Source: a virus. Taken from it: 64,000 nt of DNA. Of this stretch, positions 41,566 through 60,480 are shown piece by piece; position 1 is the stretch's first letter; each line of letters begins with the position of its first letter. The notes beneath the pieces were generated by a model. It was not told the DNA's origin. It ran no database searches and was given only the letters and a program-made list of their open reading frames with translations. Made by a program: the position numbers and the translations under genes. The stretch lies in IMG/VR virus record IMGVR_UViG_3300028840_004184, positions 106,411-170,410 of that record. One strand, written 5' to 3'.

Positions 41566-41575
41566 TTAGTGTATA
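41566..41575 (+). promoter_or_regulatory. late motif TTAGTGTATA, copy 1
   Basis: TTAGTGTATA 43 bases before the ATG at 41618. First of six copies, all in gaps of the late block and in the coding direction. Confidence 0.6.
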
Positions 41576-41617
41576 TTTAATTTGGATATATACATTTTTA
41601 TTTTTTGAGGTAGGATT

Positions 41618-41908
41618 ATGTCTGAGCAAAATGAACCTAGGTATAAGGTTATAATGATTCCTGAAGATAATGTCACGCAGATGTCGGAAACAAAGTTCGA
41701 ACCTGGCAAGGGCGAAACTTTGGTTTTTGTTAAAATAGTGGCCATGAATCAGCCGTGTATTAAAAGCAGGAACCATGATATCCCGAGTGCTTTCGCTGAT
41801 AAGGGGCATTTGGTATTTGGCGAGGTTGATGAGGTTCGTAGATTTTTGGTTGATATGCTAAATGAGACAATGGATCAGGCGAAGAAAGATGCCGAACTAA
41901 ATCCATAA
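41618..41908 (+). CDS. hypothetical protein, first gene of the late block (96 aa)
   Basis: ATG at 41618 behind GAGGTAGGATT. Acidic, mixed alpha/beta. Preceded by both a sigma70-like promoter and the late motif, so it may be expressed in more than one phase. No family recognised. Confidence 0.65.
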   Translation: MSEQNEPRYKVIMIPEDNVTQMSETKFEPGKGETLVFVKIVAMNQPCIKSRNHDIPSAFADKGHLVFGEVDEVRRFLVDMLNETMDQAKKDAELNP

Positions 41909-41917
41909 GGAGGAAGG

Positions 41918-42112
41918 ATGGAGCCTAATAGGAGTTACGCACAACCTAGTCCGGAGGCAAAAGAGTTTGATAATGTCGAGGACAGATCAAATGCTTCCGA
42001 AGCAGACACGAAGAAAAGGCGTGCTAAGGCCATGGCCGATCACGAAGTCCAGGTTAACGATGAGGACCGTAAGCCGTTGATTACTTCGCGTGATGAGGTG
42101 GAGGACGGGTAA
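41918..42112 (+). CDS. small acidic disordered-looking protein (64 aa)
   Basis: ATG at 41918 behind AAGGAGGAAGG. Rich in Glu, Asp, Lys and Ser with no hydrophobic core; probably unstructured. Its stop is directly followed by the TTG start of the sigma-like gene. Function unknown. Confidence 0.6.
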   Translation: MEPNRSYAQPSPEAKEFDNVEDRSNASEADTKKRRAKAMADHEVQVNDEDRKPLITSRDEVEDG

Positions 42113-42733
42113 TTGGTTAACGGTAGTGGTATTGCTGCCTGGCGTAGTAGTGAAGGTTTGTATAGTCAGACTAGTGGTGTTATAGATAATATTATACATC
42201 ATTATCTTATTATACAAAGAATAACAATTCCAGACATGGATGCTGAGGATATTGCACAAGAAATACGATTTAAGTGTATACAAGCCCTTCTATCACCCAA
42301 GTTTGACCCAGATAAAGTTGGGACATCTCCGTATAGTTTTTTACATCGTGTTATTCATAATCATGTTTATAATCTCAAGAGGGGTGTATGGACTGTAAAC
42401 AACCCACCGTGTGTCAGGTGTGAGTATTGGGATAAAGATGTTAGAAAATGCTTGGCACAAGTTAATCATTGTGATAAAATGTTAGCTTATCAAGATGATA
42501 TGCAGAAGAAGGCCGCGTTACGCACTCCTGTTGGGTTTGAGAAGGATTATGTGGAAAATCAAGCCTTCGAGGTTAGTTCTATAGATGACTATATTCTAGA
42601 TGACCATGTTATTAGTAGATTGCCCGAGAATCTACGCAGCTTTTATATTGATTTAAAAAAGGGGCTTGATATACCTCATCTTATACGTAAAGAATTGCGT
42701 CGTCGTATTATGAGAATTATTAAGGAGGATTAA
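42113..42733 (+). CDS. sigma-70-like transcription factor with zinc insertion
   Basis: TTG start at 42113 behind GGAGGACGGG. Residues about 43-90 read DAEDIAQEIRFKCIQALL...YSFLHRVIHNHVYNLKRG, a region-2-like helix pair of sigma-70 proteins (core binding and -10 recognition). It is followed by a Cys cluster (CVRCEYWDKDVRKC...HC) that may bind zinc, and a C-terminal basic helix (LRSFYIDLKKGLDIPHLI...RRIM) in the place of region 4. Phage-encoded sigma-like proteins direct late transcription; the six TTAGTGTATA sites are natural candidates for its targets. Confidence 0.65.
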   Translation: MVNGSGIAAWRSSEGLYSQTSGVIDNIIHHYLIIQRITIPDMDAEDIAQEIRFKCIQALLSPKFDPDKVGTSPYSFLHRVIHNHVYNLKRGVWTVNNPPCVRCEYWDKDVRKCLAQVNHCDKMLAYQDDMQKKAALRTPVGFEKDYVENQAFEVSSIDDYILDDHVISRLPENLRSFYIDLKKGLDIPHLIRKELRRRIMRIIKED

Positions 42734-42735
42734 TA

Positions 42736-42915
42736 GTGTGTCTTGTGTATGAGGTTTTTGATTGTGGTCAGGGGGTACACTATAGTTTGATGGATGGTCG
42801 TTGTATTGAAGCTAGTCAGGACGTTGACACTTCTTATATCTATCACTGTTCTTGTAGTGAGTGTGAGATTTTGAGAGAGGAGATGCGTGAACAAAGTGGC
42901 ATCGAAGAGATTTGA
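42736..42915 (+). CDS. small Cys-rich protein (59 aa)
   Basis: GTG start at 42736 behind AAGGAGGATTAATA, TGA at 42913-42915. It carries CSCSEC near residue 38 and three further Cys, enough for a zinc site. It overlaps the next gene start by 29 bp. Confidence 0.6.
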   Translation: MCLVYEVFDCGQGVHYSLMDGRCIEASQDVDTSYIYHCSCSECEILREEMREQSGIEEI

Positions 42916-43711
42916 TCCAGAAAGAATCAGAGAGCTTTTTAATGAAGGCTTTGATGATAAAAGAATAGCATTACAACTTGGTCATAATGCTGTTAATGCC
43001 TGGCGAACGGTGCAGAGAATACGTATCAAAAATGGCTGGACTAGGAAGCGTGGTGTTAAAAAGAAGCCGTCGAATCCAGTTGATAATAGCTCATCTCCTG
43101 TGAATCAAAACATTAAAAAAACTGCTATCGCTGATTTTAGTCGCATGAATCCCGATGAGCGAGTTGATTTTTTACGTGAGCGTTTTAAAAAGAGTGCTAG
43201 ATTCAGTCGTTTTTCTAAGACGATGAGTGAGGACGAAATGGAGGTGTTTCAGGAGGAATACTTTAATATTATACGTGATATAGATGATGTTAGTCTGACA
43301 GAAGAGCAGGCCTTGTTTTTTGCAATATATGATTTGATATTAGCTATGCGTGCTCAGGTTCGTCGTCAGGAAGAGGAAGATATATTAGACAGGTGTAGAA
43401 GCGGCGAAATACCTCAGGTTGATCTACGCTATATTGTTACTATTGATGATAGGTGGGATAAGGAGTATAATAGTCATATTAAGTCTTATAAGGAATTTAT
43501 TGATAATCTTAAGTTGTCGCGTAAACAGCGTTTGGATAAACAGAAAAAAACGAAGAAAACAATTTTAGATTTTGTTGTAGAATTGGCTGATCACGACAAC
43601 CAGACTTCTGTAGCAGAAACTATTAGACAATTGGAAAAAGAAAGCGATGCTGAGTTGTCACGTCTAGTGGAGAACGATCTGTTATTGGGGTATTTTGAGG
43701 GAGCTAAGTAG
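42887..43711 (+). CDS. candidate small terminase subunit (274 aa)
   Basis: GTG start at 42887 behind GAGAGGAG. The N-terminal 50 residues look like a helix-turn-helix (PERIRELFNEGFDDKRIALQLG...AWRTVQRIR), followed by a basic linker and a long helical, coiled-coil-like part. A DNA-binding N-terminus plus oligomerising helices upstream of the large terminase is the layout of small terminase subunits. Three genes separate it from the usual neighbour, so the call is tentative. Confidence 0.4.
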   Translation: MNKVASKRFDPERIRELFNEGFDDKRIALQLGHNAVNAWRTVQRIRIKNGWTRKRGVKKKPSNPVDNSSSPVNQNIKKTAIADFSRMNPDERVDFLRERFKKSARFSRFSKTMSEDEMEVFQEEYFNIIRDIDDVSLTEEQALFFAIYDLILAMRAQVRRQEEEDILDRCRSGEIPQVDLRYIVTIDDRWDKEYNSHIKSYKEFIDNLKLSRKQRLDKQKKTKKTILDFVVELADHDNQTSVAETIRQLEKESDAELSRLVENDLLLGYFEGAK

Positions 43712-43714
43712 ATT

Positions 43715-44500
43715 ATGGTTTGGACAAGTAATTATGTAGTATTAGATACTGAGACCACTGGTCTTTCTAAAAATCCGCTTGCTGAGGTTATTGAAGTTGG
43801 TGTGATCGCCTTAGATAGAAATGGTTTGTCTGAGATAGGTAGATTCCAGTCTCTTATTAAACCAGCAAATATTGATTTAAATAAACCGTTACCGGATTGG
43901 TCTAAGAAGGCTTTTGAGAAGCATCAGATATCTGTTGAAGAATTGATGGTTGCACCATCTCCCGAAGATGTGTGTCATAAGATTATTGGTTTGTTGAAAA
44001 AATTAAGCAAGCCTATTCTGGTTGGACAGAATATCGATTTTGATGTTCGTATGCTAAGAAGACTTTTTAGGTCCTGTGATGAGGATTTTGATGAATACTT
44101 TTTTAGCCCTATAATAGATTTGTATTCTATTTCTTACATGTTTTGGCGTGACGATGCTGATATGCCTAATGTACAACTTGGCACGGTTGCTGAAAAACTA
44201 AAGATTAAGCCGGGTGAGGCACATCGTGCGTTAGGGGACTGTGAGACATCTGTGCCTGTATTTAAGAAGTTTATGGATTTTATTGGTCAGTATGCTGGTG
44301 TTATTTCTGATGTAAAAATAAAAGACCCCAAGCGGATGACTGGGAAGTATGCTTGTCCTATGTGTGGTTATGGTCTATCATTGCGGACGGCCAAGAGGGG
44401 CGTTAATAAGAATAATAAATTTTATGGATGTAAGGGATTTCCTTCATGTCGTTTTACGTGTCAGTTGAATGAGATTGAGCAATACGAGAGGAATGAATAA
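43715..44500 (+). CDS. DnaQ-like 3'-5' exonuclease with C-terminal zinc finger
   Basis: D11-T-E13 in VVLDTETTGL (Exo I), GQNIDFDVRML (Exo II) and HRALGDCE (Exo III) give the DEDDh catalytic set. After about residue 205 comes CPMCGYGLSLR...FYGCKGFPSCRFT, a topoisomerase-type C4 zinc finger that binds single-stranded DNA. So it is an exonuclease tethered to DNA. Its place in the late block suggests a role in DNA processing before packaging or in recombination. Confidence 0.85.
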   Translation: MVWTSNYVVLDTETTGLSKNPLAEVIEVGVIALDRNGLSEIGRFQSLIKPANIDLNKPLPDWSKKAFEKHQISVEELMVAPSPEDVCHKIIGLLKKLSKPILVGQNIDFDVRMLRRLFRSCDEDFDEYFFSPIIDLYSISYMFWRDDADMPNVQLGTVAEKLKIKPGEAHRALGDCETSVPVFKKFMDFIGQYAGVISDVKIKDPKRMTGKYACPMCGYGLSLRTAKRGVNKNNKFYGCKGFPSCRFTCQLNEIEQYERNE

Positions 44501-45396
44501 TGAAGATTGCTGTATTGGCTGCTTTTCATAGCCTAGATAAAGGATGGTCGTGCCCGTTGTCATTAATTAATCAGCTTGAATCTATGGGACATCAGGTGAT
44601 TATGTTCAATCTTTATCAGCTTAATAATGAGAATGTTGGTGTCAGTTATACCGACAATGGCTTGAAGAAATTTTTAGATCAGCAAAATGATTTTGATTTA
44701 TTCTTGCATATGGATTATGGTATGTTTTATAGTCCCCTTTTAAAAGATGTTAAGATTCCTTCTATAGGTGAAATGGGTGATGATCCTCAGGCATTTTCAC
44801 GTAATTTGCCTAAAGCGAATTTTTTCGATTTAGTTTTTTCGCCTGACAAACGCTGTGTTCAACAGTATAAAAATCATGGGATCAAAGCTGTGTGGCTTAC
44901 GCATTGGGCCGATCCGTCTATTCATATGCCTATTTCTGATATAGTCCCCGACAAATTTGTTGTTACTACTTGTGAGACCGGCAGGGGGAACGGCATGATA
45001 AATATAATGCGTCAGCAACTTGGTGGTGATATTTGGCTAGATGATAGATATTATTACGCGTTTGAACATACAAAATTTATGCATCGTGGACATGTTGTTT
45101 TTCAAAAAAGTCAATGGGGTGAGATCACACGCAGGCCGTTTGAGGCCGCAGCGTGTAGAAAAATGGTTATGCTTGATGAACTAGAGGCTGATACTGGCAT
45201 TAAAAACATATTCAGGGATGGTGTAGACGCGGTATATTATCATAGCTGGGAAGATGCTGTTGATAAAATCAATTATTATAAAAGCAGACTAGATGAAGTA
45301 GCAGATATAGCAAAAAGTGGGTACGAAAGGGTGATTAGCGGACATACCGTCGAGCACCGTGCTAATCGTATTCTTGATTTAGTGGAGACATTATAA
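44500..45396 (+). CDS. CgeB-like glycosyltransferase (GT-B fold)
   Basis: The C-terminal half has the typical GT-B/CgeB run RRPFEAAACRKMVMLDE...GIKNIFRDGVDAVYYHSWEDAVDKINYY, with the E of PFEAAACR as the sugar-nucleotide contact. 298 residues. Adjacent to a second glycosyltransferase. The target could be DNA bases, virion proteins or a host glycan; not determined. Confidence 0.75.
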   Translation: MKIAVLAAFHSLDKGWSCPLSLINQLESMGHQVIMFNLYQLNNENVGVSYTDNGLKKFLDQQNDFDLFLHMDYGMFYSPLLKDVKIPSIGEMGDDPQAFSRNLPKANFFDLVFSPDKRCVQQYKNHGIKAVWLTHWADPSIHMPISDIVPDKFVVTTCETGRGNGMINIMRQQLGGDIWLDDRYYYAFEHTKFMHRGHVVFQKSQWGEITRRPFEAAACRKMVMLDELEADTGIKNIFRDGVDAVYYHSWEDAVDKINYYKSRLDEVADIAKSGYERVISGHTVEHRANRILDLVETL

Positions 45397-46194
45397 ATGA
45401 CCTTGCCCAGGATACCTGACGGACAAGCAATTGACAGGAACAAACAGGTTTATAGAGATATCATCGATCCATATTGTGAGCCTGGTCTTATTTCTATTAT
45501 GTTTCTGGGGTGTGGTAGACATAATGTGACACGGATATCACTTGATAAACTTTTGTTGTCGTTGAGAAAATATGATGGTCCGACTGAATGGGTTTTTCTA
45601 GAGCAGGGATGGGATATTGATAATGATGGTGCCACTAAGAATCTGACGTTATTTAAGAATATCAGTTCTTTGTTAGATAGGTCTATTATTTTGTGTCCAA
45701 ATAGGAATTATGGTATTAATGTAGCTATTAATCAAATGAATAGTGTGGCGAGAGGACAATATTCTTTATTGATCGAAAATGATTGGATGTGTCATCAAAC
45801 TACGTCAAAATGGTTATATGATAGTAAGCAAATTTTAGATGAGTATCTTAATATCGGTGTTGTCCAGCTTCGTGCCATAAATGATCCTAACGATAACTAC
45901 GGTGTGGGAAAAGTCATGTTTAATCCTTTTTCTATACCTATGTGCGAGCATGTTGCCGAACTTGTCGTTTCTTGTGGTACAAAATTTTTATTAGCTAATC
46001 ATAAGTTTGCTGGTATTAATAACAACCCTAGTTTAATTCGTAAAGAAGTTCATCTTGAGCTTGGTTTTATGCGTGAGCCCGAACTGTGGTCTGACCTTAG
46101 GCATGGTGAGACTGATAGAGAAAAGAAGTATATGCAAACAAATTGGAAAACAGCACATTTGATAGATGATGTTTTTTTTCACTACAAACCGTAG
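45397..46194 (+). CDS. GT-A-type glycosyltransferase (265 aa)
   Basis: The central ARGQYSLLIENDWMC is a D/ExD-type metal site at the end of a Rossmann-like half (CPNRNYGINVAINQMNS), typical of GT-A (family 2-like) enzymes. Follows the CgeB-like gene directly. Together they could glycosylate a shared target. The motif is weaker than in standard family 2, so the fold call is moderate. Confidence 0.6.
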   Translation: MTLPRIPDGQAIDRNKQVYRDIIDPYCEPGLISIMFLGCGRHNVTRISLDKLLLSLRKYDGPTEWVFLEQGWDIDNDGATKNLTLFKNISSLLDRSIILCPNRNYGINVAINQMNSVARGQYSLLIENDWMCHQTTSKWLYDSKQILDEYLNIGVVQLRAINDPNDNYGVGKVMFNPFSIPMCEHVAELVVSCGTKFLLANHKFAGINNNPSLIRKEVHLELGFMREPELWSDLRHGETDREKKYMQTNWKTAHLIDDVFFHYKP

Positions 46195-46201
46195 GTATTA
46201 T

Positions 46202-46684
46202 ATGGGTAGCAAGAAGGAAAGAGAATTCACTGTAGCTGTTGACACCAGGGAAAAAATTCCATTATGGGATGTAGATGATAAAAAATTTTTCATAGTACAC
46301 CAGAAGGTAGATGCTGGTGATTATGCGTTTGCTGATGATGAAATAAAGCACCTTATAACTATTGAACGCAAGAAAAGCTTTAATGAGTTATATGCTAATT
46401 TTACACGACACCGTGAACGTTTTTACAATGAAATTAACAGGATGAAAAAGTATAAGAGGCGTTTCATTGTTATCGAACAAAATGCTTCTGATGCACTTAA
46501 TCCTTTTTCATATAGAACGACCGCAAGTAAACGCAGAGCTGCTATTGCTATTGTTTTGTCGTCAATTATTAATTTGATGCTTCTGCATGATGTACATGTT
46601 GTGTTTGCTGGTGATAGTGCCAAGTCTATTATTAGGCAGCTTTTTGTTAAGACATATGAATATTATAAAAAAAATAAGTTATAG
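46202..46684 (+). CDS. ERCC4/XPF-type nuclease
   Basis: V13-D14-TREK and later ERKKSFNEL are the XPF nuclease motifs (D...ERKxxxD-type), with GDY between them. 160 residues with the ATG at 46202 preferred over an upstream start that lies within the previous gene. Such nucleases cleave branched DNA; beside a terminase they may resolve branches before packaging. Confidence 0.75.
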   Translation: MGSKKEREFTVAVDTREKIPLWDVDDKKFFIVHQKVDAGDYAFADDEIKHLITIERKKSFNELYANFTRHRERFYNEINRMKKYKRRFIVIEQNASDALNPFSYRTTASKRRAAIAIVLSSIINLMLLHDVHVVFAGDSAKSIIRQLFVKTYEYYKKNKL

Positions 46685-46695
46685 GAGGCGAAGCC

Positions 46696-46935
46696 TTGGA
46701 CGGTGAGGAACTGAGGAGTAGATTGCGTCGTATAAAAACTGTTATCATCGAAGCTGACAGACGTGCCGACGAAGCGGTTAAAGCTAGAGACGATGCATTT
46801 TCTGAGTTGCTGTCGCGATTGAATCAAAAACATGATGAAGCTGTTAGAATAGTCCAAATAGCTCGTTACGAGGCTGTTTTTAAAAGTTTATTAAAGAATG
46901 AGAACGAAGAGAATGAAGAGGAGTTCGGTGGGTAG
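46696..46935 (+). CDS. small helical protein (79 aa)
   Basis: TTG start at 46696 behind AGGAGG. Nearly the whole product is a charged helix (RRADEAVKARDDAFSELLSRL), ending in a Glu-rich tail. Directly before the large terminase. No family recognised; another possible small terminase partner. Confidence 0.55.
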   Translation: MDGEELRSRLRRIKTVIIEADRRADEAVKARDDAFSELLSRLNQKHDEAVRIVQIARYEAVFKSLLKNENEENEEEFGG

Positions 46936-46937
46936 AT

Positions 46938-48905
46938 ATGCCAGCTATTTGCACCGATGAGGTTTTAGATGTTTTTGATTCGGAAAGCACGCCCGTACAT
47001 GCCATGGTACGAATGGGGCAATTTTCGTGGACATGGTTGATCTCCCAGATATACCGTAATCAGAGGGGCAAACCTCTCCGGTTGCTACCCTTTCAGTCTG
47101 TGATGTTTGATATTCTATGGAATAAGAAATTTCCTATGATTATGGCATCTCGTGGCGGTGGGAAGACTTTTTTGCTTGGATTATATGCCTTAACCCGTGC
47201 TATTTTTTGTCCTGGTAGTAAAATTATTATTGTTGGTGCTGGCCTTAGGCAGTCTGCTAAAGTATTTTCTTATGTCCAGGATTTGTACAATCAGAGCCCC
47301 ATTATACAAGAGGCATTGCATCATTTCGGTGGGCCGAGAATTGTTACTACCGGGCCGTATATTAAGGTTGGGGAGTTATCTAGTATTATAGCGTTGCCTA
47401 TCGGCGATGGGGAAAAAATTAGAGGTCAAAGAGCTACTCATATATTGTGTGATGAGTTTGGATCGATCCCGGAAGCGATTTATGAAACTGTTATCAGTCC
47501 TTTTGCATCTGTACATGCTGATCCAGAAGAAAGGGTTATGGTTGAGAATTTCTGCTCAAGAGTAGGGGGGCTAGGTGCTGATGATGCATTGCTGGATAAA
47601 ATACGCGAGATACAGGGCTATGGAAACCAGATAGTTATTTCAGGTACTGCAACATATGAGTTTAATCATTTTTATCGAAATTATATGTCATATAAGATGA
47701 TTGCAGATTCGCACGGAGATCCCGAGCTTATTCGAAAAGCTATGGAGTATAGACGTAGAACAGATATGCATTCTAATGTTGGGGAAATAGATCCAGAGAC
47801 CATCAAAATCTTATCAAAGGGATGGAAGAACTATGCTATTCTTCAGATGCCTTATCAACATATTCCCGCTGGATTTTTAGATAATGAAATTATTGCTAAG
47901 GACAAGGCGACATTTTCATCTGTAAGGTTCGGCATGGAGTACGAATGTAAATTTGCTAAAGATTCTGATGGCTTCATTAAGAGGTCCTCTATTTTTGATG
48001 CCACACCTCAGGACGAGGCTGCTTTCGATATAGAGCTATATGGAGAAGATGGCTTTGATTATGTTATGGGTCTTGACCCAGGTAGACATAATGATAATTT
48101 TGGCCTTGTTGTATTGAAGCTTATACCAGGTGGTTCTAAATTAGTATATGCGGACGCGTGGCACGGAAAGGCCTCTCCTCAGACTGGGCGGAAGATACGC
48201 CAGATTATGAACCGCTTCAATATAGTCAGAATAGCAATGGATAAGGGTGGTGGCGGTGACTACGTGTCTGATATTTTAGCGTTGCGGGAGCTATGCGAGG
48301 AGGGCGAGCTACCTATTTTTCTTGTTAGGGAGCAAATAGAGAACAAAGCGATGCTTGGTGAAGAGGGGTATCATATTCTTGAGTTGGTTAGTTGGCAGGG
48401 TTGGATTTCTCAGGCTGCTCATAGTATTAGTGGTGATATTCAGCATAATCGTTTGTTGTTTCCCACATATCCTGATATTGAGCGTATTTATGCCAAGTAT
48501 GCTACCCATGTATTGAGGCATAGGCGAGCAATGTCTGATGAGGAAAAAATTGAAGTTGATATAATGGTTTTTGGGAAGGATAATGAGGATTTTGAAAAGG
48601 TCCAGCTTGGTGTGTGGGACAACGTAGAGGCCACGGTGGATGAAACATGTGCGATCCAGTTAATGGTTACTCCTGGTGGCGTTGAGAAGTTTGAGTTGCC
48701 TCCTTTAGCTGAGCAGCCAGATGGTATGGATATACGTAGGCGTGATAGATGGTCGGCTCTTGTGTTAGCGGCTTATGCAGCAAGGGTTTATAGAAACCAA
48801 GAGCGAACCAATAAGCCTTTGCCGCCCGGAGGATCTCCCAGTTCTATTTTGTCTGGTAAGAAACGATATAGAAAGGTGAGGAGAAAAGGAAGTGTTATGT
48901 ACTAG
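46938..48905 (+). CDS. terL: terminase large subunit
   Basis: Walker A-like ASRGGGKT (70-77), Walker B HILCDEFG (168-175) with the catalytic acid, and a nuclease motif VMGLDPGRHNDNFGLVVL starting at D380. This is the ATPase-plus-RNase H-like nuclease layout of large terminases that pump and cut phage DNA at the portal. 655 residues is normal. Ends two bases before late motif copy 2. Confidence 0.92.
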   Translation: MPAICTDEVLDVFDSESTPVHAMVRMGQFSWTWLISQIYRNQRGKPLRLLPFQSVMFDILWNKKFPMIMASRGGGKTFLLGLYALTRAIFCPGSKIIIVGAGLRQSAKVFSYVQDLYNQSPIIQEALHHFGGPRIVTTGPYIKVGELSSIIALPIGDGEKIRGQRATHILCDEFGSIPEAIYETVISPFASVHADPEERVMVENFCSRVGGLGADDALLDKIREIQGYGNQIVISGTATYEFNHFYRNYMSYKMIADSHGDPELIRKAMEYRRRTDMHSNVGEIDPETIKILSKGWKNYAILQMPYQHIPAGFLDNEIIAKDKATFSSVRFGMEYECKFAKDSDGFIKRSSIFDATPQDEAAFDIELYGEDGFDYVMGLDPGRHNDNFGLVVLKLIPGGSKLVYADAWHGKASPQTGRKIRQIMNRFNIVRIAMDKGGGGDYVSDILALRELCEEGELPIFLVREQIENKAMLGEEGYHILELVSWQGWISQAAHSISGDIQHNRLLFPTYPDIERIYAKYATHVLRHRRAMSDEEKIEVDIMVFGKDNEDFEKVQLGVWDNVEATVDETCAIQLMVTPGGVEKFELPPLAEQPDGMDIRRRDRWSALVLAAYAARVYRNQERTNKPLPPGGSPSSILSGKKRYRKVRRKGSVMY

Positions 48906-48906
48906 T

Positions 48907-48916
48907 TTAGTGTATA
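48907..48916 (+). promoter_or_regulatory. late motif TTAGTGTATA, copy 2
   Basis: Between the terminase stop (48905) and the portal start (48969), 52 bases before it. Confidence 0.65.
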
Positions 48917-48968: not shown

Positions 48969-51386
48969 ATGAAGAAAAAAGGTGCTAAGGAATCGAATAG
49001 ACGTAAAAAGAAGTCTACAGCCGTGATTGTGGAAAATGAGCCTTCTAAGGCTATTAAGTCTAGGAATACGTCTGCAAAACGAAGTTCTAAGACACAATAT
49101 AAGTATCCGTCTGCCGATGCAATTATGCGTGTTAACGCACGTCTTATGGGGGTTGCCACTGGTTCTTATGAGCCCGGTCAGATAGGTGACGCTGTTGAGA
49201 GACGTATTATCGAGAAGTATAATACTGTTTTAGGCGAAGATCCTTTGTCTTCGAATGAGAAGTCACGGGGTGAACAAATACAGATTTTGAAAAGACTTGC
49301 CACTAGTGACAAAATGAATCATGCCATTATGTCGCAATGTCATATAGCTTATTTGAGTTATGGTATTGTCCGTGTTGTTGTCGATTTGTATGCCGATTTT
49401 GCCACTGAGGGTCTTGAGATTTTACACCCAAATAAAAGTGTAGAGAATTTTTATAGAGCTTGGGCAACAAAAGTACATCTTAAAGAGCGTGTCAATAGAT
49501 TCTTTACCGACCTGTTCGTGTCTGCTAACGTTTTTATTCACAAGATTCGTGCTAAGATTAATCCAGAAGAGGAGCGTAGTATGAGGCGTGCTCAGGCGAA
49601 TAATGTTGAATTACTTGATGCAAATACGCTGCTTATACGTGGTGGTGGCAATAGTATAGATGTGTGTGTGTCGCCCAATTTGGTGTTGGATAGTGAGCTT
49701 ACTCCGTTTTTTAAGTTATGTGATGTAGCTGATAAACAGATAAAAAATGGTAATGCAATATGTTCTATTGCTGAGTCACCGGATGTTACTATTGATGTAA
49801 ATAAGAGGAAAATTCCATGGGAATATATTTCTCTTCCTCCCGTTAATATAGAGAGTCGAGATAGAAATTTTGCTAATCGTGGTAGATGGGTGCTTGTGCT
49901 TAATAAAGACGACGTTAGTTCTGTTTCTAATTTTTTACGCATGGTATATGACCCTCATAATAAAAAAACCAAGATTAAGCTACCCCCATCATTATCGGGT
50001 AAGCTTGCGAAATATGAAGGTAAATCAAGATATTATAAGGCCGAGGTGTCATTACCGCCTGATGATGTTTATGTTGTCCAGGATAAGAAGTTTGATAATT
50101 GGACTTGGGCTATCCCATTTGTTTTTCCTTCATTACGCTGTTTACGTTTTAAGGATAATCTGAGAAACATGGAGAAAAAGTTTTGTAATAGTGTTATTAA
50201 TTCTATTACGCTTTGGGAGCTTGGAGATCCTGAGAATGGTATATTTCCGGAGGATGAGCATTTTGAAAGACTTGCTGATATGTTGCAGCAGCCTGGTCAA
50301 GCTATGAATTTGATATGGCCAGCCCCAATCAAAGGTAGTGTTATCGAGCCGAGGTCCTCGAATGCTCTTGATCCTCGTAAACATGAATCGATTGATAGAG
50401 ACACTCTTGTATCTCTTGGCATTCCTGATGTTTTGATTGGTGGCAAGGGCAGTAATTTTTCCAACTCTTTTATTTCTGTAGCTACTACTCTTAAGAAACT
50501 TGAGGTTGCTCGTGATCGGATAGAAGCATGGCTTATGAATGAGCTTAAAGAGATTGCTGAAGCAATGGGGTTTCGTAAGCTTCCTAGGATTAAGTGGGGC
50601 AAAAGTAGCTTGCGTGATAAGAAATGGGAGCAGCAGTTTAAACTTCAATTATTCGATCGTGGCGTTTTGTCTGCCGAAGCGTTACTCAAGGAGGCTGATG
50701 AGCACCTTGATACCGAGGTACAGAGGCAGAAAAATGAGAAAAATATCGCCGATTCTACCGGCGTTGGTGTTCTTGATAAACACACTCCTTATTATCGTCC
50801 AGCCGATTTGGTCAAGGTTGGTATTATGCCTCCTGGTTGGAAGCCAGAGCGTAACATGTTAGATATTAAGGAGCAAGAAGCCGAGGTTGATATTAAGATA
50901 GACAAGAAAAGAAATGATACACTTAATCCAGAAGGTGGTGATGACAAGAAGCCCACTAAACCAGAAGGAAGACCGCCGGGCAAGCAAGACACTCAAAAAA
51001 GAAAGAAAAAGGAACCTGTCCCTCGTGGAAATAATGTAGCTGCTTTTATCAAATTTGATTCGCTTAAGGAGCAGGGAGCCAAGTTATTGGATACGGTCGG
51101 CTCTATGCTAAAGACCAAGGGGAAGCGGGGGCCTGTGTCTGAGAAATTACTTTACTCTGTCGTAAGTAATTTAACTGCTGGTTGCTCGAAGACAGATATC
51201 ACAAAGACTATCAAAAGTCTTAAGAGCATAAAAAATAATAAGATAAATGCGTCGGTTAATAAACCTTATGAGTTTTTAGTTAATTATTATAGGGTGAAGT
51301 CTATTGACAATAAATTATCTAAAGACCAAAAACGAGATATATTTATTTATGCTTGGGCGGTAGCAAATATGATTAATCTGTTGTAA
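48969..51386 (+). CDS. portal protein
   Basis: 805 residues directly after the large terminase. Residues about 465-560 read LVSLGIPDVLIGG...VATTLKKLEVARDRIEAWLMNELKEIAEAMGFRKLPRIKWG, the stem/wing signature of phage portal proteins. The N-terminus is basic and the C-terminus has a Lys/Pro-rich linker (KKPTKPEGRPPGK) and a helical tail. It forms the dodecameric DNA channel at one capsid vertex. Confidence 0.82.
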   Translation: MKKKGAKESNRRKKKSTAVIVENEPSKAIKSRNTSAKRSSKTQYKYPSADAIMRVNARLMGVATGSYEPGQIGDAVERRIIEKYNTVLGEDPLSSNEKSRGEQIQILKRLATSDKMNHAIMSQCHIAYLSYGIVRVVVDLYADFATEGLEILHPNKSVENFYRAWATKVHLKERVNRFFTDLFVSANVFIHKIRAKINPEEERSMRRAQANNVELLDANTLLIRGGGNSIDVCVSPNLVLDSELTPFFKLCDVADKQIKNGNAICSIAESPDVTIDVNKRKIPWEYISLPPVNIESRDRNFANRGRWVLVLNKDDVSSVSNFLRMVYDPHNKKTKIKLPPSLSGKLAKYEGKSRYYKAEVSLPPDDVYVVQDKKFDNWTWAIPFVFPSLRCLRFKDNLRNMEKKFCNSVINSITLWELGDPENGIFPEDEHFERLADMLQQPGQAMNLIWPAPIKGSVIEPRSSNALDPRKHESIDRDTLVSLGIPDVLIGGKGSNFSNSFISVATTLKKLEVARDRIEAWLMNELKEIAEAMGFRKLPRIKWGKSSLRDKKWEQQFKLQLFDRGVLSAEALLKEADEHLDTEVQRQKNEKNIADSTGVGVLDKHTPYYRPADLVKVGIMPPGWKPERNMLDIKEQEAEVDIKIDKKRNDTLNPEGGDDKKPTKPEGRPPGKQDTQKRKKKEPVPRGNNVAAFIKFDSLKEQGAKLLDTVGSMLKTKGKRGPVSEKLLYSVVSNLTAGCSKTDITKTIKSLKSIKNNKINASVNKPYEFLVNYYRVKSIDNKLSKDQKRDIFIYAWAVANMINLL

Positions 51387-51398: not shown

Positions 51399-51408
51399 TT
51401 AGTGTATA
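51399..51408 (+). promoter_or_regulatory. late motif TTAGTGTATA, copy 3
   Basis: Between the portal stop and the gene at 51469, 60 bases before its start. Confidence 0.65.
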
Positions 51409-51468
51409 ATGTTATAGCATATTATTTTTGTACATATTTTTGACCTATAAAGAAGGCAGGTGATATAT

Positions 51469-52458: not shown

Positions 52459-52464
52459 TAATTT

Positions 52465-52728
52465 ATGGCTAGATGTACTAAGTGTGGGGCTGTTCTTTAT
52501 ACAACTGAGCGTGGTAATATTACTATGGACACCGAGTCTAGGTGTGGGTTTAAACACAAAAGTTGTGATAAAGCTATCGGTGTTAAGAAGTTAACAAAGG
52601 ATATTGTTCCTGTTGTGACGCCGAAAAAGAAAAAAGTTTTTCCTCGTTCATCAGGTGGTGTTGGTGAAACTAGGTCTTCTAAGTTGGATAATGAGAACAA
52701 AAATAATGATATAGAAAAAGAAACTTAG
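52465..52728 (+). CDS. small zinc-binding protein (87 aa)
   Basis: CTKCG at residue 4, a Cys in RCGFKH near residue 28 and one in SCDK near 34 make a single zinc site. The rest is basic and then acidic. Its stop codon overlaps late motif copy 4. Confidence 0.6.
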   Translation: MARCTKCGAVLYTTERGNITMDTESRCGFKHKSCDKAIGVKKLTKDIVPVVTPKKKKVFPRSSGGVGETRSSKLDNENKNNDIEKET

Positions 52729-52734
52729 TGTATT
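52725..52734 (+). promoter_or_regulatory. late motif TTAGTGTATT, copy 4
   Basis: Overlaps the stop of the zinc gene, 20 bases before the protease-scaffold start at 52755. Confidence 0.6.
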
Positions 52735-54419: not shown

Positions 54420-54442
54420 TGTGTGAAGGAGGTGTTAAGTAG

Positions 54443-54883
54443 ATGGCTCTTAAAGAGGATCGTCAAATTTTTGAAACAAGTGTAAGCTTTGCTTCATCTG
54501 GTACTATGGAGAGAGGTGGAGTGGCAAGTATTATCCCGTGGGCTGATGGGCTCGTGTATTATGCTGCTGGTAGTGGACAAACGCCTCATGGTATCGTACT
54601 TGATGACATTGAGTCTTTGAATCCTATGACGCAACCCGAGTATCTGCAAAGAAATGTTTCTCCTGCGGGTGCAGCAGTTGGCATCGTGACGAGAGGTGAG
54701 GTCAAGACAGATATGATTGATACTGGCAATACTACTTATGCTGCTGGTCAGCCTTTGTATCTGTTAGGTAATGGAAGAATCACTAACATTGCTTCTGTTG
54801 TCGGGACGTTGGATGTGCGTGTTGGCACTTGTTTGTCAACTAGGGATTCGCAAGGTTTTATCAAGATGAGAGTTGAATTATAA
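54443..54883 (+). CDS. putative head decoration protein (146 aa)
   Basis: ATG at 54443 behind AAGGAGG. Beta-rich, small, Gly-rich, immediately before the major capsid gene, the usual place of decoration proteins. It shares the elements ERGGV, RGEVxTD, GTxLS and a final KxRxEL with the 57667 protein, suggesting one fold. Function by position. Confidence 0.55.
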   Translation: MALKEDRQIFETSVSFASSGTMERGGVASIIPWADGLVYYAAGSGQTPHGIVLDDIESLNPMTQPEYLQRNVSPAGAAVGIVTRGEVKTDMIDTGNTTYAAGQPLYLLGNGRITNIASVVGTLDVRVGTCLSTRDSQGFIKMRVEL

Positions 54884-54901
54884 GAAGGGGGTGAAAAATA
54901 G

Positions 54902-55933
54902 ATGTCTTATGCAAAGAAGTATAGCGAAAAATCAAAGGATGCTCTTAGGAGAGCGGCTTCTGCTAACAAGGAGATTCGTGAGGATGCTCAACAAGCTCTT
55001 GCTCAGGCACTGACCGTCCCTCTTCGTAAAGCTATTTTCGACAGGGATAGTCTTGGTGAGATCTTCGTAAAAGAAGTTCTTGAGCCGGGTGGACAGGCCA
55101 ATTATCCGCTTGATTTCATCAAGCCTGGATACGAGGACGAGTTTGTCGCTTTTACTCTTCCTAAGCAGGGGAGAATACCGGAGAGACATGTGGAAGGCGA
55201 CGAGCTTTGGGTCCAAACTTTTCGCGTTGGTAATACCATCGATTGGGATATTTCTTACGCTGAAAATGCTCGCTTTAACGTTATTGAGAGATGTATCCGT
55301 GCTTATGAAGACGGCTATATCCGCAAGAATAACAGTGATGGATGGCGTACTATCCTAGCTGCTGCTGATGGTCGTGGCTTGATTGTTTCCGCTACGGGTG
55401 CGGCTCCTTTTACTGGGGCGACAGTTGTTCCTACTGCTGCTGCCGGTCAGTTTACTAAAGAGCTTGTGTCTCGTATGAAGACTGCCATGATGAGAGGTGC
55501 TGGCGGGAATGGGCCTTACGCTGGACGTTTGACCGATCTTTATCTGAGCCCTGAGGCTATGGAAGACATCCGTGCCTGGGACGCGGACGAGGTTGATGAG
55601 TTCACACGTCGTCAAATCTTCGTTAACGAGGAATATGGTCTGGCAAGTATTTATGGGGTAACCCTCCATGAGATGACCGAGTTCGGTATCGGACAGGAAT
55701 ATCAGAACTTCCTTACTAACGTTACTAGAACTTCTTTTCCTGGAAGCGAAGTTGAGTGGTGCGTAGGTCTTGACTTGTCTACCAAGGATTCGTTCCTGAT
55801 GCCTATTCGTAGAGAGCTAGAAACTCTTGATGATCCTACACTTTACAGGCAGATGAGAATGGGTATTTATGGCTGGATGGAACATGGCTTTGCCGCTTTG
55901 GACCCTCGTAGGGTAATCCTGGGCTGCTTCTAA
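54902..55933 (+). CDS. major capsid protein (HK97 fold)
   Basis: 343 residues after protease/scaffold and decoration genes, with a strong ribosome site (AAGGGGGTG). The N-terminal helix (KSKDALRRAASANKEIREDAQQ) and the central run (DLWV-type GDELWVQTFRVGNTIDWDISYAENARFNVIERC) resemble HK97-type capsid proteins of large phages. Followed by a terminator. A capsid call by context and length more than by a diagnostic motif. Confidence 0.8.
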   Translation: MSYAKKYSEKSKDALRRAASANKEIREDAQQALAQALTVPLRKAIFDRDSLGEIFVKEVLEPGGQANYPLDFIKPGYEDEFVAFTLPKQGRIPERHVEGDELWVQTFRVGNTIDWDISYAENARFNVIERCIRAYEDGYIRKNNSDGWRTILAAADGRGLIVSATGAAPFTGATVVPTAAAGQFTKELVSRMKTAMMRGAGGNGPYAGRLTDLYLSPEAMEDIRAWDADEVDEFTRRQIFVNEEYGLASIYGVTLHEMTEFGIGQEYQNFLTNVTRTSFPGSEVEWCVGLDLSTKDSFLMPIRRELETLDDPTLYRQMRMGIYGWMEHGFAALDPRRVILGCF

Positions 55934-55964
55934 GGTTATGTCATTTATTACAGTTTAGCAATAT

Positions 55965-55999
55965 ATAGAGAGGGATAATATCTCTCTCTATTTTTTTTT
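55965..55999 (+). terminator. intrinsic terminator after the capsid gene
   Basis: ATAGAGAG pairs with CTCTCTAT around GGATAATAT, followed by a run of T. Confidence 0.8.
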
Positions 56000-56001
56000 A
56001 T

Positions 56002-56011
56002 TTAGTGTATA
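56002..56011 (+). promoter_or_regulatory. late motif TTAGTGTATA, copy 5
   Basis: Directly after the capsid terminator, 92 bases before the gene at 56103. The position after a terminator strongly suggests a promoter. Confidence 0.7.
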
Positions 56012-56102
56012 TACATACATCAAGTCTTACTTTACAATCGGTCCCTTATGGCCGGTGGGGTGGAGGCGAAGAAAACAAGATATGATGGAGGAGGTTTTAG
56101 AT

Positions 56103-56711
56103 ATGGGTATGAGAGGTACACTTAACGCGAGAGGTTCTCAGTTTCTTCGTGGTGTTGCTTATGTGAGGCATTTGGGAGATGAGGGGTCTGCTGGTAGTCC
56201 AGCCGGTCACGTCGCATTAAGACCTGATACAGACCATGTTGTTGGGTTTACATCAGGTATCCCATCAACTGCCGCGACGGCTGGTAGTGGTATCACAGTT
56301 CCAGCACAGGGCGTTTATAAAGCCAAGGCTTTTGTGCATGTATCTGGTATGGCTCCCGTGCCTGCTGTTGTGACTCAGGCTGGTCCTCAGTATGGTATTG
56401 GTTTTACTCTTGATGGTGCTCCTATTCAGCAATCTCGCAATATTTTCAACGCCGCTTCTGGTGTCGGTAGTAATGGCGTAGCAGCGAGTTCTCCTCAAGT
56501 TACAAGACTCGAAGCAGAAGCCACTTTCTTTGCTCGTAAGAATGATGTTCTTCGGGTTGTCATCCGTGGCAATGGAGACGCTGGTGGATTTACTCTAGTC
56601 GGACAAGATGAGCTTAGCGGTGCTAATGTGCCGATGACTGTTCCTGCCGCTTTTGTACATCTACAAAGAATACCTACTAAGGAGCTTGGTTCTGACACAT
56701 ACCTTGTCTAA
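56103..56711 (+). CDS. C1q/TNF-like jelly-roll structural protein (202 aa)
   Basis: Start at 56103 for GGAGGAGG eight bases upstream. The pattern GVYKAKAFVHV, YGIGFTLDGAPI, FFARKNDVLRVVIRG and AFVHLQRI is that of the trimeric C1q/TNF-type jelly roll found in phage head fibres and decoration proteins. Expressed as its own unit. Probably a virion surface protein. Confidence 0.6.
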   Translation: MGMRGTLNARGSQFLRGVAYVRHLGDEGSAGSPAGHVALRPDTDHVVGFTSGIPSTAATAGSGITVPAQGVYKAKAFVHVSGMAPVPAVVTQAGPQYGIGFTLDGAPIQQSRNIFNAASGVGSNGVAASSPQVTRLEAEATFFARKNDVLRVVIRGNGDAGGFTLVGQDELSGANVPMTVPAAFVHLQRIPTKELGSDTYLV

Positions 56712-56723
56712 CAGCTTATAATG

Positions 56724-56747
56724 GGGTGACTCCATAAGGAGTCACCC
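56724..56747 (+). terminator. hairpin between late genes
   Basis: GGGTGACTCC-ATAA-GGAGTCACCC, a perfect 10-bp stem. The T-run after it is poor (TAATACTCTTA), so termination may be partial. Confidence 0.6.
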
Positions 56748-56778
56748 TAATACTCTTAGATTAGGAGGAGTGTGAATC

Positions 56779-57318
56779 ATGACTACCTTAACGGGTGATG
56801 GTGGCATTTATGATGCTGTACGTATCGACGCAGGCGATCCTGATGGGGTTGTATTCGTTGATGCTTTTTTGAATCGTGTGCTACAGAAAGCTGTGCGTAG
56901 ACTCAATAATACGCTTGGTTTGTCTGTGACTAATCGACCAAGAGGCGTTCATGGATACAAATCTCTGAGTGTCGCTCCTATCACATATAACATCTCAGGT
57001 AACAGTATTGACCCAGACAACGACGAGCTTGCTGACATGATAGTATTGATGATGGAATATATTATCAAAAAAGGCGAGGTCGCTGCTCTTAAGAGACTCA
57101 ATGCTGCTTATGGGGGGGCATTTTCCACCAATGCGGAAGCAGATGATATATCTGTAAAAAATGCTGATGGTGTTGATGTAAGGATGGGGGCAAACAGACT
57201 TGCTACTAGAGCAAGATTATTTACTCTTGATTTAGAAACAATCATAAAAGAGTTAAATGAAGCGATAAAAAGATTTTTATTTCGTCAAACTGGTAATTAT
57301 AGTAAGTTGGTTTATTAA
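56779..57318 (+). CDS. putative head-tail connector protein (179 aa)
   Basis: ATG at 56779 behind AGGAGGAGTG. Mostly helical (DAFLNRVLQKAVRRLNNTLG and DELADMIVLMMEYIIKKGEVAALKR). Helical adaptor proteins of this size usually follow the capsid gene in tailed phages. Call by position and helicity. Confidence 0.45.
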   Translation: MTTLTGDGGIYDAVRIDAGDPDGVVFVDAFLNRVLQKAVRRLNNTLGLSVTNRPRGVHGYKSLSVAPITYNISGNSIDPDNDELADMIVLMMEYIIKKGEVAALKRLNAAYGGAFSTNAEADDISVKNADGVDVRMGANRLATRARLFTLDLETIIKELNEAIKRFLFRQTGNYSKLVY

Positions 57319-57323
57319 ATGTT

Positions 57324-57662
57324 ATGCTTGTTTGGTTGCGAAGCCCATTTGCTATTGGTCTTATTCCCGAGACTGGTGGTAGAATATATGGATATAGGCT
57401 ATGCTATGATCCTTGTGAAATATCTTATGAGCTATACAAGAGACATAAGAAGATTTTTAAATTAGCTCCTTATACTACTAAGTGGCTACGCGAGAATTAT
57501 GGTGCAGATTTTACTCCAATTTTTTTTACGTATGATGAGGTTATGGATATGCCTTATAAGGCATTACATAGGCTCGCTTATGAAATGAATCTAGGATTTC
57601 GTGGTAATCCATCTATTAAAAAACTTAGGCTTGCTATTCGTAGATCATTAAGGAGCAAATAA
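57324..57662 (+). CDS. small hypothetical neck-region protein (112 aa)
   Basis: ATG at 57324, 5 bases after the previous stop and without a clear ribosome site. Basic, with many aromatic residues (SYELYKRHKKIFKLAPY) and a helical end. No family recognised; in the neck gene region. Confidence 0.5.
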   Translation: MLVWLRSPFAIGLIPETGGRIYGYRLCYDPCEISYELYKRHKKIFKLAPYTTKWLRENYGADFTPIFFTYDEVMDMPYKALHRLAYEMNLGFRGNPSIKKLRLAIRRSLRSK

Positions 57663-57666
57663 CTAT

Positions 57667-58257
57667 ATGGGACTGAAGCCACTAAGGACACAATACATGA
57701 CAAATAGGGATGATTTTTGTCATCCTCGCACAAGCGAGCGTGGTGGTGTTTTAACTGCTGTCACTGTGTCTGGTGTTGAGTACGCTGATTATTCTGCTGA
57801 TCCAAGTGGACTCGGCATTTTAGGTATTAAAGCGAATGATCATGAGTGGATGGAGTTTGATAGACAGGTGTCTAACTATGGTGATGTTAGACGCGTAGCC
57901 CAACTAGATGATATAGCTTATATAATAACTGGTGGTGAAGTTGTAACTGATTGGGTCCATCCAGATTACGCCTCTTCTATAAAAGCGGGTGATGCTGCTT
58001 ATGCTGGTCCTTCTGGTTTGTTGGTAAATGACCAATCTTTTGCTGGTCGAAAAGTGGGCACTTTTCTTTGTAGTGTTGGTTCAACGCAATTTAATTTACA
58101 GAGACATGATACTTATCTTGTTTTATATGGAGGCGGTGGACTAAGTTATGTATGGACCGATCCACAAACAAAAGAAATAGAAGAAGTAAATACGACTAAG
58201 GTATTTTTATCTGTTGCTGGGTGGGTTAAATTAAGAATAGAACTGAGTAGTGGTTAA
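57667..58257 (+). CDS. beta-rich structural protein related to the 54443 protein (196 aa)
   Basis: ATG at 57667 behind AAGGAGC. Shares ERGGV, GGEVVTD, GTFLxS and a final WVKLRIEL with the 54443 protein in the same order, with extra loops between. Suggests two variants of one decoration or plug-type fold within the head-neck genes. Confidence 0.5.
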   Translation: MGLKPLRTQYMTNRDDFCHPRTSERGGVLTAVTVSGVEYADYSADPSGLGILGIKANDHEWMEFDRQVSNYGDVRRVAQLDDIAYIITGGEVVTDWVHPDYASSIKAGDAAYAGPSGLLVNDQSFAGRKVGTFLCSVGSTQFNLQRHDTYLVLYGGGGLSYVWTDPQTKEIEEVNTTKVFLSVAGWVKLRIELSSG

Positions 58258-58259
58258 TT

Positions 58260-58784
58260 ATGGTATTATTGCCAACAAAAGAGGATTTTTCTCAGGCTTC
58301 AGGCACGATACCTTTTGGTATTATGGAGCGTTATTACGAGGCTATTATGGACAAAACCTATGTCCAGAATAGTGGCATAGCTCGTCAAATTATATTACAT
58401 CTTGAGCCATCACGTACTGAAGATAAAACAGTGCAGGCACAGAACAATCCTGGGGCTTTTAATCCGTATTTTCAGGGGGCGATGAGACCTACTGCTGGTG
58501 GTAAAAATAGGAGTGTTGAAATAACTCCTCGCGATATACCGTATATGGCCCAGATTAGACATGGACCTAAACCAGATGATGATACAAATGGAATCGGTGC
58601 GTTAGCACAAGATGAGTGTGCTACTACTTTAGCTATTGAATGTTTGCCTGATTTGGAATCTTGTTTGTCAGCTACGATTGATGATATGCGATTTACTAGA
58701 TTGGGTGGGCATAGGCCAATTGGTTTTATGACTAAAAAATTTGTTATACAGAAGTGGAAACGTAAACAGGAGACTGTGGTGTAA
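58260..58784 (+). CDS. hypothetical neck/head-closure protein (174 aa)
   Basis: ATG at 58260, directly after the previous stop. Mixed alpha/beta, with RQIILHLEPSR and a basic C-terminus (FVIQKWKRKQE). Located where head closure or tail completion proteins usually are. No diagnostic motif. Confidence 0.45.
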   Translation: MVLLPTKEDFSQASGTIPFGIMERYYEAIMDKTYVQNSGIARQIILHLEPSRTEDKTVQAQNNPGAFNPYFQGAMRPTAGGKNRSVEITPRDIPYMAQIRHGPKPDDDTNGIGALAQDECATTLAIECLPDLESCLSATIDDMRFTRLGGHRPIGFMTKKFVIQKWKRKQETVV

Positions 58785-59422
58785 TGGTTGAGATTTCTAT
58801 TGATTTAAATAAAAGATCTAATAGGAGATCTCTTATGTTTGCTGTTACTAATAAATGGAACAAGGCTGTTGTTCTGGCTGCTCCTGCGATTCAAAAGGAG
58901 TTGCGTAGTCAGTTGATTACTGGTGGCGGAGCGATGATTCCATTTAATAAAACGCTTGTTTGGACATATATGCATCAGCCAGGAATTTTGGCTGAGCTTG
59001 GTTTTATGTCGCTTAAACCATTTGATGATTTGTTAGATGCTTTACGTAGTACTATTGATGTATATACATCTCGTGCTAAGCGTAAAATGTTAGTTATCAA
59101 TATGTTTTCTTTGAGTGCTATCGCTGGGATGACAATTCATCCTTCTGCTGGGACTGGTCAGCTAGGTGAGGTTTCTTGGTTTGTTGATTGGGTTGTTCGG
59201 GGTAGACCTATCCGCAGATATGATTTTAAGACTACCGGACCTCCTGTACCAAGGTCATCTAGGTTGGCAGGCCCAGAAGCTGGTTTGATGGTTCCTGCTC
59301 GTGGTGGATTTTGGAGCATACCTCCTTTTAAGGATGATATTTTGAGGTGGTTGGATAATAACGGAAGTCATATAAAGTCTTTGATTATTAGTCAAATTAG
59401 GAAAGCTGTGAAGCGGGTATAA
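58784..59422 (+). CDS. hypothetical tail-completion-region protein (212 aa)
   Basis: ATG at 58784 overlaps the previous stop. N-terminal basic helix region (NKRSNRRSLMFAV), a central hydrophobic stretch, then a Pro/Gly-rich part and a C-terminal helix (ILRWLDNNGSHIKSLIISQIRKAVKR) of the style seen in HK97 gp10-like neck proteins. Function by position. Confidence 0.45.
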   Translation: MVEISIDLNKRSNRRSLMFAVTNKWNKAVVLAAPAIQKELRSQLITGGGAMIPFNKTLVWTYMHQPGILAELGFMSLKPFDDLLDALRSTIDVYTSRAKRKMLVINMFSLSAIAGMTIHPSAGTGQLGEVSWFVDWVVRGRPIRRYDFKTTGPPVPRSSRLAGPEAGLMVPARGGFWSIPPFKDDILRWLDNNGSHIKSLIISQIRKAVKRV

Positions 59423-59424
59423 TT

Positions 59425-60474
59425 ATGGGTTTATATAAGCATAGATCGTTATTAAAATTAAATATGAAAATGCTTCTTGATTATGAGTTTGTCAGAGATG
59501 GTAGATATAGTAATGTTGCTTCTGGTCAGCAATATTATGATGGTTCGGACATGAGTATTTTGCAGTGTGATACAGAGGCGTCTAACCAGTTTGGTATGCA
59601 GGCCGGTCAGGTATGGCAAAGCATTTCTCGTAATTGGGTTTATGAATCTGGTGTTGTTCTTAACGACACGATAGGTATCAGGGATAATGCCCTACCTATT
59701 GTTTGTTCCGGTGTTTATGTCGATGGTATTTTTAAGGCTACCGCGTCTTCTCATCCAGATCATGATGTTTCGTATTCGCATCACGTTGATTGGATCAACG
59801 GGCGTGTTATTTTTGATTCTCCTGTATCTTTAACGTCTAATGTACAGGCTGCTTTTGCTTATAAACATGTTCGTGTTACCTTTGAGGATGATTTTAATAA
59901 TGAATTACAGCAGGGGTATTTAGAGTCGAAGTATTTGACTAATCCGTTAGTGTCTAATAATTTAGCTTATCCGTCTGGTATGGCACAGCCTTTTCCGGCT
60001 GTTTTTGTCGAGACTGCTAGTCGTAGATGGAAACCGTATGAGCTTGGTAATAGGAGCTTAACGGCTCATGATAGAGTTATTTTTCACGTATGGACACTTG
60101 ATGGTATGACGAGGGATGATGTTATGGATATTATTTCTTATCAGGAAAGAAAGAGTATCCCTATGATTGACTTCAATTTAGCACCATTGCCTTTGTCTGG
60201 TATTTATAATGAGATTTCTCCTGAGTATATACCTTATCAGGAGTTGTTGAAAAATCCGGTTGTTAATGTAATAGGTTCTACGTATGGGACGGCACATGCT
60301 ATTGGTTACAATATGTTTATAGAAGATACGGAATCTATGAATGATGCAAGGTATGCCGATTTTGAGCGTGGTCGTGTCGAATGTATAGCTATTGTGCATC
60401 AATTTCATCCTAATTTGCCTATAGGAATAAATACTGGCTCTTTTGGATTTAAGGGCGGGAATGAGAACTTTTAG
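59425..60474 (+). CDS. hypothetical neck or tail protein (349 aa)
   Basis: ATG at 59425. Acidic, rich in Tyr, Asp and Ser, mainly beta (VNGRVIFDSPVSLTSNVQAAFAY-type stretches). Last gene before the tail-tube-like gene; a tail terminator or baseplate-like role is possible. Its stop overlaps late motif copy 6. Confidence 0.45.
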   Translation: MGLYKHRSLLKLNMKMLLDYEFVRDGRYSNVASGQQYYDGSDMSILQCDTEASNQFGMQAGQVWQSISRNWVYESGVVLNDTIGIRDNALPIVCSGVYVDGIFKATASSHPDHDVSYSHHVDWINGRVIFDSPVSLTSNVQAAFAYKHVRVTFEDDFNNELQQGYLESKYLTNPLVSNNLAYPSGMAQPFPAVFVETASRRWKPYELGNRSLTAHDRVIFHVWTLDGMTRDDVMDIISYQERKSIPMIDFNLAPLPLSGIYNEISPEYIPYQELLKNPVVNVIGSTYGTAHAIGYNMFIEDTESMNDARYADFERGRVECIAIVHQFHPNLPIGINTGSFGFKGGNENF

Positions 60475-60480
60475 TGTATT
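60471..60480 (+). promoter_or_regulatory. late motif TTAGTGTATT, copy 6
   Basis: Overlaps the stop of the previous gene, 50 bases before the tail-tube-like gene at 60530. Confidence 0.6.

Follow-up and report, generated by a model that had tools for sequence, protein, structure and literature searches.

A candidate single-element late promoter and its putative sigma factor in a group of uncultured large phages

RESULTS

A repeated 10-nucleotide word marks junctions of the late genes

The window analyzed here comprises the final 64 kb of a 170,410-bp IMG/VR virus record, IMGVR_UViG_3300028840_004184 (the record is referred to as G000 and the window is G000:C1:106411-170410). Its plus strand carries genes for a phage sigma factor (42113..42733), the terminase large subunit (46938..48905), the portal protein (48969..51386), and the major capsid protein (54902..55933), and at junctions along this region lie six copies of a 10-nucleotide word, TTAGTGTATA or TTAGTGTATT, which we consider here as a candidate late promoter element. 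The positions and coding direction that an earlier, sequence-only reading had given for the six copies proved exact. The form TTAGTGTATA occurs at 41566..41575, 42 nt before the gene at 41618 in an operon that includes the sigma gene; at 48907..48916, between the terminase and portal genes, with portal the first gene behind it; at 51399..51408, after the portal gene and before the gene at 51460; and at 56002..56011, where, as that reading had stated, it directly follows the hairpin and T-run of the capsid gene. The form TTAGTGTATT occurs at 52725..52734, where GGAGG starts 9-10 nt downstream, and at 60471..60480, before the gene at 60530. These last two copies lie at gene junctions as proposed, but not strictly in gaps, since they overlap the ends of the upstream open reading frames (ORFs) 52465-52728 and 59425-60474 (stops at 52728 and 60474). 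Among the gene names suggested earlier, portal is supported by PHROGs (1e-8) and capsid weakly so (6e-7), whereas neither PHROGs nor Pfam supports the C1q-like and tail-tube-like labels.

All six copies of TTAGTGTATW in the window are on the plus strand, against 0.41 expected from dinucleotide shuffles, and none of 100 shuffles had as many as six. When one mismatch is allowed the excess is gone (20 sites versus 14.6 expected); therefore, the signal is the exact word. A scan of the full record by strand, suggested as a check on the proposal, found 12 copies, 11 plus and 1 minus (the reversed pattern gave 3 plus and 1 minus), and the one on the minus strand (72239-) heads a gene block of that strand, standing 39 nt ahead of a gene with a GGAGG site. 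The genes below it (L012 9624-12190, minus) include a RuvB-like ATPase (RuvB_C 3e-14), which suggests that some recombination genes may be expressed late. Elsewhere in the record, the copy at 78333 precedes a trypsin-like protease gene (L012 18420-19202; Trypsin_2 1e-24), the copy at 5870 (outside the window) coincides with the final codons of a 1713-aa ORF, likewise at a junction though not strictly in a gap, and the copy at 8554 has no clearly convincing next start.

The core of the word tops the 8-mer ranking upstream of genes in this phage and its relatives

Relatives were gathered with the terminase large subunit as query (40-48% identity, mostly contigs of 91-178 kb), and six further ones (110-183 kb), kept out of the motif definition, came from a sigma alignment; the sigma protein alone as query matched nothing in viral contigs. 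Without assuming a motif, we ranked all 8-mers by enrichment in the roughly 3.5% of sequence directly upstream of ORFs on the sense strand, with ORFs called mechanically and individual start codons thus approximate. The core of the element, TTAGTGTA, ranked first in G000 (8 of 14 copies in 3.6% of the sequence), first in ten pooled relatives (56/84 in 3.3%, log10 P -61), and first again in the six held-out relatives (40/63, log10 P -41), where control words were not enriched and every record contained the motif. When 16 genomes are pooled, 103 of the 160 copies fall in 3.4% of the sequence; the 10-letter word stands before virion genes in this phage and in at least 15 of its relatives. The statistic takes copies as independent, and because G007 and G008 are close relatives the exact P values are optimistic, although the effect holds irrespective of them. 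Applied to phiEco32 as a positive control, the ranking placed the experimentally established AATGTATA among the top ten words.

The location of the element is conserved as well. At the terminase/portal junction, TTAGTGTATT, TTAGTGTACT, TTAGTGTAAT, or a close variant (CTAGTGTATT in L031, TTAGTGTATC in L120) is present in nearly every relative outside one branch, that of G003, and it frequently overlaps the terminase stop codon. The copy that follows the capsid terminator also keeps its place in relatives. The element also occupies the terminase/portal junction of two contigs binned with bacterial metagenome-assembled genomes, L183 (JAJDBS010000089.1, Nitrospirales) and L184 (NZ_JAILWB010000012.1, Hydrogenophaga); this binning may reflect contamination or hint at hosts. 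We also observed a AATCTAATCGCAATCTAATCA-like sequence that recurs in the portal leader of relatives, behind the 48907-type element (e.g., L024 11986 onward).

The element resembles a −10 box without a −35 partner

Over 79 nonredundant copies the conserved block is sharp: TTAGTGTA, then T/A/C, then T (A in most G000 copies). No column exceeds 0.15 bits in the 60 nt upstream of these copies, and hence we find no −35 element there. These copies were gathered with the first eight letters fixed, and tolerance was therefore measured separately, on one-letter variants pooled from 16 genomes. Clear enrichment is kept only at positions 1 (mainly A), 5 (mainly A), and 6 (mainly T), while changes at positions 2, 3, 4, 7, and 8 abolish it; A at position 4 of the 10-mer, for example, is not tolerated (4/120 upstream). 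Shine-Dalgarno sites never start 0-5 nt behind the element and pile up just beyond, with a minimum of 6 nt and 20/93 at 6-9 nt. If the block is a −10-type element, a transcript would begin at this distance, which points indirectly to a start site ~6 nt downstream.

Terminators provide a second indication. With a strict detector, adopted after a first, loose one showed a 24% background, a GC-rich hairpin was found ending no more than 15 nt ahead of the element in 30 of 131 copies, compared with 63 of 1,679 controls (P ~1e-13), as expected if a new start is needed behind a terminator. The leaders behind the element were also examined as a class for 5' hairpins, and this candidate feature was rejected, their structure being no greater than that of controls. 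Individual leaders do carry covarying-looking hairpins right behind the element, one type before a ~220-aa gene (GCGTTGGTA..TACCATAGC, GCATTGAT..ATCATAGC) and a second before a ~158-aa gene (GAGGCRTAGCG..CGCTTAGCCT); sites of leader hairpins are G007 49402, G008 66218, G009 62602, and G005 127680.

Strand-specific placement upstream of genes, together with hairpins in several leaders, could also be produced by an RNA processing or mRNA stability site at the 5' ends of late transcripts. We regard this as very unlikely: many copies come straight after a terminator-like hairpin, a place that requires transcription to start anew; the spacing to Shine-Dalgarno sites, never below 6 nt, agrees with a start site; and the leaders as a class are no more structured than controls.

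In some relatives GC-rich perfect stems abut the element at 0 nt (G002 41601, G004 91549, G005 85170, G006 116395, G009 101980, G015 82905/131969, G017 58623/76291, and G019 156692), and in several of these CTAA before the stem can pair with the TTAG of the element, such that terminator and promoter overlap. About a dozen abutting copies of this kind, some with the TTAG pairing, are what one would expect if the element did not start transcription but formed the tail of an intrinsic terminator. Yet 101 of the 131 copies lack such a hairpin, the word at the terminase/portal junction is mostly kept without one, and a terminator tail does not need the invariant TAG..TA, so that this explanation appears exceedingly improbable. 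A further arrangement seen in relatives is a conserved pair of elements ~305 bp apart flanking a short interval that contains an ORF and a hairpin (G002 41295/41601, G007 38525/38833, G009 51493/51797, G014 53633/53948, G015 131960/132266, G017 75987/76291, and G018 45586/45898).

Short nonpalindromic words can serve many purposes, and we also considered repetition by chance and a DNA site bound in replication, in packaging, or by a repressor. The strong excess, the orientation to the downstream gene, the Shine-Dalgarno spacing, and the synteny leave these explanations with hardly any likelihood.

The 42113-42733 protein is a region 2 sigma factor that accompanies the element

The protein encoded at 42113..42733 comprises a sigma-70 region 2, an insertion with four cysteines (C100, C103, C113, C120), and a short helical C-terminus. 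Pfam Sigma70_r2 matches it above the curated cut-off (5.6e-6) and matches 10 of 10 aligned homologues, whereas no Pfam region 4 match was obtained in 10 members at an E value of 1. Invariant residues include NNPPC..C plus two further cysteines after region 2. The AlphaFold model (predicted local distance difference test score 72, predicted template modeling score 0.42) is of high confidence over approximately residues 21-90 and the C-terminal helices, which are three and short; some sigma structures align over both ends. Its top fold matches are sigma factors, and residues 12-93 superpose on T4 gp55 in a promoter open complex (7d7c_F, Z 7.0, root mean square deviation 3.2, 77 residues). Taken by themselves, fold Z values of this size do not constitute proof, yet they are in line with the Pfam match. 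Foldseek gave no significant E value (best 0.06), with sigma factors, or complexes and models containing them, as its top rows. Judging from its sequence and predicted fold, the 42113-42733 protein is thus a true sigma region 2 protein, and its lack of a recognizable region 4 fits the absence of a −35 element.

A homologue is found in all 17 long records (11 plus the six found through sigma), and G000 and most relatives have no other sigma match. Among isolated phages we found neither a close sigma homologue nor near-identical DNA, the only match being a weak one to a Paenibacillus phage sigma (5e-3). Two ORFs before the sigma gene (96 and 64 aa), considered as candidates for a gp33-like partner, did not match an ORF at the same place in a relative. 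A search for RNA polymerase genes of the multisubunit type found none in eight of these phages, with controls working; the host core polymerase is therefore the probable partner of the sigma factor, a T7-type enzyme being also conceivable.

The G003 branch offers a comparison within the group. Its sigma has diverged furthest, being 23-25% identical to the 42113-42733 protein, and G003 has no copy of TTAGTGTA. Instead, TTATCGTATA occupies the junction of terminase and portal, the region ahead of the presumed scaffold gene, and the position following the capsid terminator, with six copies in 113 kb, five of them on the late strand. In an 18-kb sister contig (~69-74% DNA identity over the main alignments), whose sigma is 80% identical, TTATCGTATA is kept at two of these junctions. 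In other genomes, TTATCGTA is not enriched upstream of genes. Element and sigma appear to covary, which is supportive, not proof, of a functional link; a matched change of this kind in one branch would offer a natural experiment in DNA recognition by sigma region 2.

The element might nonetheless be a late promoter read by another factor, such as a second phage sigma, a host alternative sigma, or an activator. Recognition by the 42113 protein is something we infer, some relatives encode a second weak sigma-like ORF (G005 70023 and 115499, G006 80917, and G010 7604; E ~1e-4 to 7e-4), and phiEco32 employs an additional activator, gp79 (PMC8948821). Against this stand the occurrence of the 42113 homologue throughout the long records, the lack of any other sigma match in G000 and the majority of relatives, the divergence of the homologue together with the element in the G003 branch, and the correspondence between a missing region 4 and a missing −35 element. 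We consider another reader unlikely, though less so than any of the explanations in which the element is not a promoter.

Predicted early promoters precede the late element at the sigma operon

The record contains 16 TTGAC(A/C/T)-TATAAT sites with 16-17 nt spacers. Two of them form a divergent pair ahead of the sigma operon: a predicted sigma-70/A type early promoter, TTGACT-N16-TATAAT with TG before the −10, at 41459..41486 (plus), and a second TTGACT-N16-TATAAT at 41401..41428 (minus) for the minus-strand block. The late element at 41566 follows this pair. Given this order, the host enzyme can make the sigma factor first, and the late element could then reinforce it. In the relatives examined, no exact late element was seen shortly ahead of the sigma gene; positive feedback on the sigma operon may thus be peculiar to this phage. 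Separately, the parts scanned for tRNA genes (G000 80-100 kb, i.e., L013, and window 39720-40631) contain 24, 19 of them in one cluster.

DISCUSSION

Proposed mechanism and its weight

We conclude that TTAGTGTAWT (TTAGTGTATA in most G000 copies) is probably a single-element, −10-like late promoter read by the 42113 sigma-2-type factor together with host RNA polymerase. Early in infection, the host holoenzyme would transcribe early genes, including the 42113-42733 operon, from TTGACT-N16-TATAAT promoters. The 42113 protein would then bind the host core RNA polymerase and, by region 2 alone, recognize and melt the 10-bp element, with transcription beginning ~6 nt downstream. In this way the portal, scaffold, post-capsid, tail, and other late genes would be switched on, as would, in this phage, the sigma operon itself. 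The pairing of a late promoter with the 42113-42733 factor had been put forward by the sequence-only reading, and the top rank of the word, its syntenic junctions, the Shine-Dalgarno spacing, and the co-occurrence and covariation with sigma make it the best-supported interpretation of the genomes.

Several observations weigh against this interpretation. A minority of copies lie within genes or far from any start, the leaders as a class show no structure above control, the confidence of the AlphaFold model is middling, some relatives encode the second weak sigma-like ORF, and the covariation rests on a single branch of two contigs.

More tentatively, and as a joint claim that we think possible but doubtful, an uncultured, widely distributed phage group may have evolved its own single-element sigma/promoter pair in which a four-cysteine, possibly zinc-binding, insertion replaces region 4, with a specificity switch from TTAGTGTAT to TTATCGTAT in one branch and with fused terminator-promoter modules whose terminator stem runs into TTAG. 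Of 88 papers that contain the letters of the word, the ten listed were unrelated, none describing it in a phage; the element, the sigma lineage, and the phage group appear undescribed. In practice, the 10-bp word would let late transcription units be called from sequence in these 90-183-kb phages, known here from metagenomes only.

Comparison with known phage sigma systems

The late sigma factors of SPO1/Twort-type phages (Herelleviridae) use two-element promoters. The system proposed here is like theirs in being a phage sigma cascade in large phages, and the 42113 sigma had no sequence match in the phage collection. The T4 late element, TATAAATA, differs from the element described here. T4 late promoters, which depend on gp55, gp33, and gp45, nevertheless consist of one −10-like element with no −35, and their sigma has region 2 homology (PMC2988020). 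Both properties are shared by our system, in which the sigma-2 domain superposes on gp55. A search confined to the bacterial-type beta clamp found none. In phage 7-11, the sigma SaPh711_gp47 reads bipartite late promoters, GTAAtg-(16)-aCTA, and has region 4 (PMC8948821); the redirection of host polymerase to late genes by a phage sigma would be common to both systems, whereas the bipartite promoter and region 4 are not.

The closest parallel is phiEco32 (Kuravirus), in which phi32_gp36, a phage sigma without region 4, reads middle/late promoters upstream of late genes with the sequence tAATGTAtA, no −35, and starts 6-8 bp downstream (PMC8948821; PMC4281155). The element described here is likewise single, lacks a −35, lies upstream of virion and other late genes, and accompanies a phage sigma without a detected region 4, and the start distance measured in phiEco32 matches our Shine-Dalgarno-based spacing (PMC8948821). 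The words themselves, TAGTGTATA and TAATGTATA, differ at one of nine positions (TAGTGTATW versus tAATGTAtA), ours having G as the third letter of the nonamer common to both. In contrast, the 42113 sigma shares only 13% identity with phi32_gp36 (BLAST E 0.07 over 9 residues, hhalign probability 2.6), carries the four-cysteine insertion, and has a different C-terminus. Neither sigma sequence homology nor the promoter word places it in the phiEco32 gp36 family. Promoter words matching at 8 of 9 positions despite such dissimilar sigmas may reflect convergence or a remnant of shared origin. The system would be another case of a phage sigma using a −10-like element alone, close to the phiEco32 promoter though the two sigmas are hardly alike.

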